A stretch of DNA of 64,000 bases from Gigantopelta aegis (taxonomy: Eukaryota; Mollusca; Gastropoda; Neomphalida; Peltospiridae), in assembly GCF_016097555.1 (NCBI RefSeq), contig NC_054712.1, positions 51,438,938-51,502,937 on the forward strand, read 5' to 3'. Made by a program: the position numbers and the translations under genes. Position 1 is the stretch's first letter. Each line of letters starts with the position of its first letter. Of this stretch, positions 1,396 through 59,988 are shown piece after piece. The notes under the pieces were generated by a model, which was not told the origin of the DNA, made no database searches, and saw only the letters and a list, made by a program, of their open reading frames with translations.

Positions 1396-1572
1396 ATGAG
1401 TACTACAGGTGTGTGCATCACGATAGTTCTGGCCATTGCGGCGTTTGCCGGTAACTGGTGGTGGACGGACAAGAGTCGACACGAGTTCATCAGGCGAGTG
1501 GGCGACAGAGTGAAGGCGCCGGACATCCTGATCAACCATTCCAAGGTGTTCGCTAAACCAGAGATAATACAG
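1396..1572 (+). CDS. Alkylsulfatase exon 1
   Basis: Encodes residues 1-59: the hydrophobic N-terminus, then a basic stretch around RHEFIRRVGDRVKAPD, ending PEIIQ. The donor is CAG|GTTAGT and the intron phase is 0. The last 50 bases are copied again inside intron 1. Confidence 0.85.
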
Positions 1573-57481: not shown

Positions 57482-59988
57482 CTGTGAAAGAGAAATATTA
57501 AACATGTTTACATGTATGTATGAGGGTATTTCAAGACATTATCTCGGTCCATTCATTGACGTGGTGAGGGGTCATGTATGTCTCGGTGACCCAAAGAGCT
57601 ATGCCAGCAGGAGCTTTCGCTTCTGCCAGGGACACCCAAGCTGGACTGGTCAATGGGTAGAGGCTAGACTGATATGGACTAAGTGTGAGATAACCCTAAC
57701 AGAAACCTCGAGTGCTGAAGTCACAGGTATTGGGCCGCACGGCGCACTCCAATAAACCAATATGCCATGCATCAACAGCTATTATGACTACATTTCTGGG
57801 AGAGTGAATATAAAAACAAGTTAAATTTGTTTTTGTTTTGTTAAACGACACCACTAGAACACATTGTTTTATTAAACATCGGCTAATGGATGTCAATTGT
57901 GACGTGGTCATAAGAGAGAAAACCCGCTATTTTGTTTTCATTAGTAACAAGGGATATTTTATATACCACAACCATGATAGCACATACCACGGCATTTGAT
58001 ATACCAGTCGAGGTACACTGACTGATACGAAAAATAGCCCACCGATGAGGATCGATCCTAGACCGACCGCCCCCTATAAAAACAAGAGTGAAACATTTAA
58101 AAAAAAGCCCAGAGTAAAACACGTCAAATGAAAAGCTGAGTTACATCTAAAACAGTTACATAAAGCGGCGTCCAACTAGTGGACACAGACCAAGATTCTT
58201 CTTATATCCAATTAAGGTTCAATCATACTAGCCTGGGCACACACACTTCAAGGGTGTGGCTAATCCGTCACGAACAGTGGTTTAGTAGTTAGTGAGAGAG
58301 AATTTCGAAGTCGGAGTGGTGTAATTACATCTACCCAGTGAGTCATTAAACTCGCTCTGGGTGGCAGCCGGTACCAGGAGGCGAACCCAGTACATACCAA
58401 GCTTAAGTGCGGTGGATTAATAGATTAATATTACAATGGAAGTTATTTTATTTTGATCGATGAGCGTATGCGGGGTCTTTCTAACAAGGAGTGCGTGTTT
58501 TAAACAAAAAGAAAAAGACACAGCATCCCAGTATGCACTGTACGTATAGCAATCTTTCCCGAATGCATCTATTTGACTACGAGATTACAATAAGCCTCTG
58601 ACTACTAAAAATAAACTATTTAAACAAATAATTTTTCGAGGGATTTCGCAGTTCGGGTGGAGCAATACACCATACGGCCAAAACAAATACTTGCCTTTCG
58701 GACCGATCTGTTCCTTTTGTAAATAACGAAATGTGAACACTATGCGCAGTCTCGTCAGCTAGAACTAAATTAAAAGTTTAAATAAAGTTTGTTTTGTTTA
58801 ACAACACCACTAGAGCACATTGATTTATTAATCGTCGGCTATTGGATGACAAACATTTGGTAATTCTGACATATAGTCTTAGAGAGGAAACCTTGTACAT
58901 TTTGTTTTCTATTAGTAGCAAGGGATCTTTCATATGCACCATCCCACATACCAGACGTGGTGCACTGGCTGGAACGAGAAATTGCCGAGTGGGTCCACCG
59001 ACGGGGATCGATCCTAGACCGACCGCGTATTAGGCGAGCGTTTTACCACTGGGCTGCGTCCTGCCTTTGACTAATCATAATGTAAAATGTAGCAAGACAA
59101 TGTACTTACGTTCTCGCTTTAGCCAGTGCACCACGACTAGTTTATCAAAGACAGCGGCATGTGCTATCCTGTCTGTGGGATGGCAGATATAAAATATCCC
59201 TTTCAACTAATGAAAAAATGTAACGGGTTTCCCCTCTAAGACTATATGTCAAAATTTTCAAATGTTGGACATCAAAGACGATGATTGATAAATCAATGTG
59301 CTCCAATGGTGTCGTCAAAGAAATCAAACCTGGTCTACCGGCGGGGATCGATTCTGCGCATCAGGCGAGCGTTTTACCACTGGGCTGCGTCCTGCCTTTG
59401 ACTAATTAAAGGGACATTCCTGAGTCTGATGCAATTTTTAACATGTTATCGATTAACACAGACTTTTTAACGATTGTAATTACGTATCAAATATATTTTT
59501 CTGCATAACATATTAGTGGCTGTATATTAGACGTGTTTCTGGTCGTTCTAATATTTGTACTAGGGTAAATTTCATTTTATTTCCTAAAATATGTTTTTTC
59601 GTACTTAACGAAATTATTTGAAGACAAAACACAATTTGGGCTTCTTACAAATATTAAGATGACCGTAAACACATTGAATACACAGATACTGACATTCTAA
59701 ACAAGAAAATATATTCAATATGTAAGTTTAATCGTAGAAATATTTTATTAGTCGGAAACATCTTACAATGAAGCAAACTCAGGAATGTTCCTTTAAAATG
59801 CAAAATGTAGCAAGACAGACTACTTACGTCACATGCGGAGCTCTTGGACCCTATTGGACTGGAACAAACTCCGTCGCTTGGCACGGTCATGTTAACTACG
59901 TTGTACCGGGTCAGAGTGTCAAGAACTCCGTTACAGATGTCCACAGACCACAAGTTGACGTCTGTCTCCTGGAGCTGATCAAACGGAT
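57317..59988 (-). CDS. Second serine-protease homologue, last two exons (partial gene)
   Basis: Minus-strand exons 59828-59988 and 57317-57481 join at phase 0 to encode the C-terminal 107 or so residues of an S1-fold protein. The Ser site reads SSACDIDGGGMLLC: Asp194 is kept but Ser195 is Gly, so this is also a non-catalytic homologue. The exon of 161 nt with phase 1 in and 0 out equals exon 6 of the gene at 42137-55069, and the ends are alike (TFVNVTKNLEFILANMA against TLFVDYTKGLANTN). The genes converge tail to tail, about 2.2 kb apart. Upstream exons should lie beyond 60000 on the minus strand; none was recognised up to 64000, so they are outside the window or too diverged to see. Confidence 0.8.
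57500..57770. other. Unassigned repeat-like text in the intron
   Basis: TATGTCTCGGTGACCCAAAG, TTTCGCTTCTGCCAGGGACA and CTGGACTGGTCAATGGGTAG look like a retroposon end, but only one copy is in the window. Confidence 0.3.
57821..58074 (-). mobile_element. SINE family B with 12-bp target duplication
   Basis: TTTTGTTAAACGACACCACT through GGATCGATCCTAGACCGACC. TATAAAAACAAG flanks it at 57809-57820 and 58075-58086. The outer head is truncated. Confidence 0.85.
58215..58440 (-). mobile_element. SINE family D copy
   Basis: GTCACGAACAGTGGTTTAGT, CTACCCAGTGAGTCATTAAA, GCAGCCGGTACCAGGAGGCG, head text GTGCGGTGGATTAA. Diverged. Confidence 0.65.
58441..58787. other. Intron, nothing recognised
   Basis: No repeat landmark or frame of interest. 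Confidence 0.5.
58788..59068 (-). mobile_element. SINE family B copy
   Basis: TTGTTTTGTTTAACAACACC, GGCTATTGGATGACAAACAT, GGATCGATCCTAGACCGACC, head ACCACTGGGCTGCGTCCTGC. Its head and right flank are duplicated at 59332-59405. Confidence 0.8.
59069..59112 (-). repeat. Copy of the exon donor region inside the intron
   Basis: AATGTAAAATGTAGCAAGAC, ATGTACTTACGTTC repeats the true exon border at 59797-59830 (AATGCAAAATGTAGCAAGAC, AGACTACTTACGTCAC). The donor GTAAGT (minus strand) is preserved in both. Confidence 0.85.
59113..59327 (+). mobile_element. SINE family B copy, headless, plus strand
   Basis: CCAGTGCACCACGACTAGTT, GATGGCAGATATAAAATATC, CCAATGGTGTCGTCAAAGAA. It lies between the two copies of the duplicated donor block. 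Confidence 0.75.
59332..59405 (-). repeat. Second copy of the SINE head of the duplicated block
   Basis: GGCGGGGATCGATTCTGCGC, AGGCGAGCGTTTTACCACTG, GGCTGCGTCCTGCCTTTGAC and TAATT repeat 58990-59075. Confidence 0.85.
59410..59792. mobile_element. MITE family A, TTAA target, next to an exon donor
   Basis: 383 bp, AGGGACATTCCTGAGTCTGA to GAATGTTCCT, with TTAA at 59406-59409 and 59793-59796. The sister block at 59060-59090 lacks it and serves as an empty site. It lies 31 bp from the 5' splice site. Confidence 0.88.
59828..59988 (-). CDS. Second protease homologue, penultimate exon (161 nt)
   Basis: DPFDQLQETDVNLWSVDI, CNGVLDTLTRYNVVNMTV, PSDGVCSSPIGSKSSACD. Acceptor (minus) TTGTTTTCAG, donor GAC|GTAAGT. 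Phase 1 in and 0 out. Confidence 0.82.

Follow-up and report, generated by a model that had tools for sequence, protein, structure and literature searches.

Tandem duplications that carry splice sites with them are known from a few systems. In the potato RdRp case, as given in the accessible text of PMC4974935, a tandem duplication crosses an intron-exon boundary, and the same article cites a fission yeast gene whose intron spans four tandem repeats of an exonic AGGT segment. In abalone, a vetigastropod, intron 3 of a TSSK1-like gene holds a 27-bp array for which length variation is reported (PMC6905558, accessible text), and satDNA-like arrays of oyster are carried by Helentrons (PMC7492417, accessible text). 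Our literature searches found no description of exon-border-seeded arrays as a recurrent class, although the narrow word combinations of several of them make this weak evidence of absence. Here, we report that in a snail genome the sequence crossing an exon border is repeated head to tail, on the same strand, at both kinds of border and in distant genes. With a probability of roughly two in three, we read these arrays as locus-private minisatellites, that is, border-crossing tandem DNA duplications that were then amplified and tolerated in the intron.

The window, i.e., the whole stretch of DNA analysed, comprises 64,000 nucleotides of snail chromosomal DNA (C14:51438938-51502937; genome size 1.149 Gb). 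Models with GT-AG borders were built for gene A (four exons) and gene B (six exons), and two exons of gene C were read directly from the sequence. The spliced protein of gene A aligned with 60% identity and 100% coverage to a linear primary-alkylsulfatase-like protein of Haliotis asinina (P0001); to judge from its sequence, the host snail is a relative of Haliotis. Gene B is presumably a chymotrypsin-like protease homologue, with GDQGGP replacing the usual GDSGGP, and a Pfam search of its product returned zero matches. The window also holds a minus-strand ORF with an alpha-kinase domain (29638-30504; Pfam E 2.7e-29) and, at 62852-63825, ORFs in two frames resembling what we take to be a Tc1-type transposase. 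The features on which the comparison draws are listed below, with the splice site marked by a slash.

1396..1572, plus strand: exon 1 of gene A (alkylsulfatase), from the gene model; donor ATACAG/GTTAGT
1573..1771, plus strand: start of gene A intron 1, with copies of the exon 1 end and donor region, from local alignments; donor event positive
2290..2496, plus strand: exon 2 of gene A, ending in IIYTHNHADHTYGAK; donor GCTAAG/GTAGGT; Pfam Lactamase_B on the exon
2458..6992, plus strand: first array of gene A, running from the end of exon 2 into intron 2, 52/53-bp units, 86 copies including the exon's own
7263..11520, plus strand: second array of gene A intron 2, 110-bp dimer unit, 77 copies
17144..17396, plus strand: exon 3 of gene A, from the gene model; donor negative in the strict test
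18246..19354, plus strand: exon 4 of gene A, with the Alkyl_sulf_dimr and Alkyl_sulf_C domains (Pfam)
42137..42500, plus strand: exon 1 of gene B (protease homologue, GDQGGP), from the gene model; donor CTTCAG/GTAGGA
42501..43440, plus strand: start of gene B intron 1, where the exon 1 end is copied in tandem, in several copies together with the donor
53492..54776, plus strand: ordinary intronic array of a 58-bp unit in gene B intron 5, taken as a comparison case
59079..59111, minus strand: copy in the last intron of gene C, AC/GTAAGT, with the AC of the exon and 31 nt of intron; alignment score 46
59828..59988, minus strand: penultimate exon of gene C (second protease homologue), read from the sequence; donor TGTGAC/GTAAGT

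The array in intron 2 of gene A (A2) is built on a 52/53-bp unit in which 39 nt of the exon 2 end are followed by 13 nt of intron. When 2401-14300 was searched with a 28-nt core of this unit, allowing up to eight differences, 164 copies were recognised, that of exon 2 included, with 86 before position 7000, 77 within 7200-11560 and one at 14031; three shuffles and a different 11.9-kb part of the window gave zero matches. The maximum of about 85 copies put forward in the original prediction covers the first block only. By unit alignments, the 110-bp array at 7263-11497 is a diverged dimer of the 52/53-bp unit, descended from the same exon border (scores of 43 and 36, where shuffles averaged 15-16 and peaked at 26 and 28). 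Furthermore, the first array contains, over 2598-6700, a higher-order repeat of about 1435 bp, with 83% self-match at a 1435-bp shift.

Exon 2 ends in THNHADHTYGAK, which we take to be a metal-binding stretch. Close versions were seen by eye in two Haliotis proteins, one Lottia and one Patella protein, all of which, also by eye, continue past it without an insert. Since this exon end is conserved in other molluscs, the exon is the source of the A2 repeats, and exonisation, in which an intron repeat turns into exon, was ruled out for A2 on the same ground. Moreover, a genome DNA search with window positions 2400-2760 returned 24 matches, all 24 of them inside the A2 locus, so the array is private to it. 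It is for A2 only that these comparisons establish the exon-to-intron direction and the locus privacy.

Intron 1 of gene A repeats the last 51 nt of exon 1 together with the donor at 1657-1718 (local alignment score 99), the donor region with 10 nt of exon and 28 nt of intron at 1606-1643 (score 61), and an exon-only piece at 1741-1766 (score 32). Copies in gene B intron 1 reach to about 43434, with exon portions that measure, by eye, between some 23 and some 110 nt, and tblastn matches were obtained at 42556-42600, 42883-42963, 43155-43235 and 43319-43432. Four introns had originally been described as starting with copies of their own exon end or donor. This stands for introns 1 and 2 of gene A and intron 1 of gene B, whereas gene C repeats the donor and intron start just once, 718 bp downstream of the donor, with SINE-like sequence intervening and no exon beyond AC. 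An element with inverted ends (GGGACATTCCTGAG...CTCAGGAATGTTCC) at 59400-59790 adjoins the gene C donor, and a similar end lies near 16530.

For counting, a strict event was defined as border-crossing sequence repeated within 310 bp together with an array starting at the border, a reach that the gene C copy exceeds. Within the window, three of nine donors and none of ten acceptors were positive, figures that are no measure of frequency in a window preselected for the feature; donors A3, B2, B3, B4 and B5 and all ten tested acceptors were negative. The 58-bp array in gene B intron 5 occupies much of its intron and stops about 140 bp short of the acceptor, without exon sequence, and no exon-border copy was found in it.

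Recurrence extends beyond the three window genes, since the same structure stands in distant P450 and kinesin genes of this genome. Border arrays were found at the P450 donors L028, L033 and L043 and, for kinesin, at the donor of L056 and in decayed form at that of L060; on the acceptor side they stand at L028, at L014 and, in weaker form, at L033. In L028 one P450 exon is flanked on both sides by arrays of its own borders: five 80-bp copies give five acceptor sites at 1144-1545, and at least 16 donor sites follow at 1927-3026, the exon's own counted on either side. The L043 array (reverse strand, about 1720-2598) has a 44-bp unit in 19 or 20 copies, again with the exon's own; the copies read GTTA (18) or ATTA (1) against GTAA at the exon's own donor, a pattern that one change at the founding of the array would explain, as would selection acting to remove strong decoy donors. 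In L056 a 58-bp unit occurs nine times, giving nine donor sites with that of the exon. The mirror image is seen at L014 (9071-9540; C14, about 20 kb upstream of the window), where six 76-bp copies of a pyrimidine tract, AG and exon start end in the exon itself, with CAA for AG in the two outermost; the exon presumably belongs to an RMDN/FAM82-like gene. The acceptor arrays at L014 and L028 refute an exclusive tie to 5' splice sites, which the original prediction had suggested. The array at L057, which begins about 30 nt inside the intron, was dropped as a border case.

Frequencies outside the window were taken from exon places located by Pfam genome searches (93 for P450 and 124 for kinesin). 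Forty of the 93 P450 places were used, namely 18 from the 30 loci returned and 22 picked for mutual closeness, and from the 124 kinesin places 22 that ranked high on the list were taken with 650 bp on each side, passing over unplaced contigs; the 60 kb next to the window supplied four further exons. Excluded were the ten P450 loci of full or nearly full length (L015-L024), the pieces of a broken copy (L029 and L031) and a second view of L043, together with the donors of ten last P450 exons and two borders lying too close to stretch ends. Sampled borders were set, without RNA, with a simple score for splice sites around the edge of each match, and by hand for the donors of L043 and L057 and for the four exons neighbouring the window. 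The L014 exon was noticed via its array; therefore, counts are also given without it. The background consisted of 45,663 positions outside the window, in 10-bp steps on both strands, with positive-border loci included. Two other backgrounds were discarded: that of the whole window was uninformative, as the 9-kb array alone turns about 20% of positions positive, and one with a 1.44-kb reach was probably inflated by nearby SINE pairs, so the near-tandem test was used instead.

By the strict test, 4/55 donors and 2/65 acceptors outside the window were positive, about six and 2.5 times the background and about four times when pooled. The background rate was 1.22% (bootstrap over loci 0.86-1.66%), or 0.89% of 41,878 positions once positive-border loci were left out; near-tandem repeats span 2.7% of the 45,663 positions, with 1.2% sitting at a repeat edge, so tandem duplication is general in this genome. 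Donors exceeded background at a nominal P of 0.004-0.013, acceptors on their own showed no excess in this sample (P 0.19-0.29), and the pooled count of 6/120, against about 1.5 expected, gave P 0.004-0.015 (5/119 without L014, P 0.015-0.05). GC content leaves the border excess unexplained, the GC-matched expectation being 0.66 donors and 0.86 acceptors. A preference of arrays for exon borders over other positions is nominally seen for donors but not for acceptors, and it weakens at stricter settings: with a score threshold of 50 the counts fell to 2/55 donors (P 0.11) and 4/120 pooled (P 0.035), and five settings spanned P 0.0035-0.064 for pooled borders and 0.0045-0.15 for donors. Because a selected exon copy would stay recognisable longer, the background was also doubled, which gave pooled P values of 0.07-0.35 over the five settings (0.07 at the standard one). 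The P450 exons picked for closeness had no event in 18 donors or 22 acceptors. Donors are thus probably, though not certainly, enriched.

Donors and acceptors did not differ significantly in this small sample (P 0.41; 4/55 versus 1/64 without L014, P 0.18; 5/55 versus 3/65, P 0.47, in a lenient count adding the decayed L060 and L033). The original prediction had named a lack of donor excess as speaking against it, but a sample of this size leaves room for a donor bias. Genome-wide, the donor 9-mer CAGGTAAGT had 9,769 sites with 697 pairs lying 25-55 nt apart, against 9,124 sites and 400 pairs for the reversed word. As proof this count was given little weight, since it is over-dispersed, with 79 of the 100 places listed falling in one C1 array, and since the word, which outnumbers its reverse by a factor of just 1.07, marks few true donors. 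The array in question (G000:C1:29524681-29528149) has a 31-bp unit with CAGGTAAGT in most units.

In this context, a process biased to 5' splice sites, such as R-loops, U1-related stalling or template switching, seems unlikely to us. Outside the window only donors rise above background, the positives inside it are all donors, and CAGGTAAGT pairs outnumber those of the reversed word; however, the window was picked for the feature, donors and acceptors show no significant difference elsewhere, clear acceptor arrays exist, and the word count carries the weaknesses just given. Return of partly spliced RNA, also put forward originally, is unneeded, and the data do not point to it: exon and intron stay joined in the border copies, which lie in place, head to tail and in one orientation, so tandem DNA duplication would suffice. 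That both kinds of border act as hotspots at which mutation produces tandem duplications, perhaps by way of chromatin or nucleosome edges, of breaks coupled to transcription, or of microhomology where GC-rich exon gives way to AT-rich intron, is to our mind rather improbable; the counts set against the 1.2% of positions and the GC-matched expectation speak for it, as does the L028 exon with arrays at both ends, but acceptors alone stay at background, the excess shrinks at threshold 50 and, with detectability time doubled by the conserved exon copy, reaches only P 0.07 at the standard setting, and the closely spaced P450 exons had none. The small sample (4/55 versus 2/65) is compatible with a donor bias or with a border hotspot. 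It is a tentative possibility that borders, donors foremost and acceptors too, are true duplication hotspots in this lineage, and that introns grow preferentially from their ends with splice-site-bearing sequence as a by-product.

A function of the arrays as decoy or alternative splice sites tuning splicing or intron length we regard as very unlikely. Intact sites are frequent in the arrays (16 donors in L028, nine in L056 and five acceptors in L028, the exon's own included), and in C. elegans, according to the accessible text of PMC4039745, one minisatellite is enriched close to regions of alternative splicing. Nevertheless, of the site spacings of 80, 44, 58, 56 or 48, 75-76 and, in the first A2 copies, 51-53, most are not multiples of three (48, 51 and 75 are), so use of an extra site would usually shift the frame; the L043 copies depart from their own donor, and 65 of the 164 A2 core matches lack both GGTAGG and GGTAAG. 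An origin as central repeats of Helentron-like mobile elements, or as assembly artefacts, has next to no probability in our judgement, even with the oyster arrays as a precedent for the former. Helentrons and Helitrons would place one unit at many loci, whereas the genome search found the A2 unit at a single one; each unit derives from the exon that it adjoins, and among ten border units compared pairwise no pair scored 28 or more, so the units are mutually unrelated and no shared mobile repeat is involved. The copies of A2, L028 and L043 carry mutations that set distinct variants apart, something not to be expected from a looped assembly.

The reading as locus-private minisatellites accords with the head-to-tail tandem copies and with units in the minisatellite range of roughly 10 to over 100 bp. 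One or more tandem duplications of a segment of about 44-170 bp, happening to cover an exon border by chance or with a moderate bias, would have founded each array, and slippage or unequal exchange may have amplified it. The copy joined to the exon would be held by selection on the protein while the others drift in the intron. Donor arrays run downstream and acceptor arrays upstream, presumably because only this geometry keeps the exon intact; tolerance would thus act as the filter, and the arrays would be without function. Against this reading stand the border excess of 6/120 versus about 1.5, which chance plus tolerance does not predict, the arrays at both ends of one L028 exon and, as regards neutral drift of the A2 copies, the intact GGTAGG or GGTAAG in 99/164.

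Border arrays look like a way for introns to grow, mostly at their starts and also at their ends. If several per cent of borders seed arrays, this would be a directional mode of intron growth, in which introns keep receiving fragments of exons that bring working splice sites along, with a bearing on intron length, cryptic splicing and exon gain. Furthermore, with the exon copy as the source, the direction of such duplications is known, and they could serve to gauge the places and the frequency at which short tandem duplications arise.

Compared with the systems described so far, the snail arrays share with the potato RdRp and fission yeast cases a tandem duplication involving splice sites (PMC4974935, accessible text). 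In the intron gain of Rogers, an exonic AGGT segment is duplicated and a new intron is made; the snail units carry at least 13 nt of intron past the donor, so the intron was already present before duplication. Unlike the potato and yeast cases, the duplicated segment thus already holds intron sequence, and an existing intron is lengthened; the snail arrays also differ in their many copies, in several genes and at both exon ends. The unchanged protein of Rogers is matched in gene A by the full-length alignment to Haliotis. As in the abalone TSSK1-like gene, short tandem units lie inside an intron, but the first snail unit is the exon end or start itself, whereas the accessible text on abalone mentions no exon-border origin (PMC6905558). 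Finally, the oyster Helentron arrays and the snail genome are alike in an abundance of short dispersed arrays; those of oyster, so far as the accessible text goes, are dispersed families in mobile elements (PMC7492417), while the snail units derive each from its own exon.
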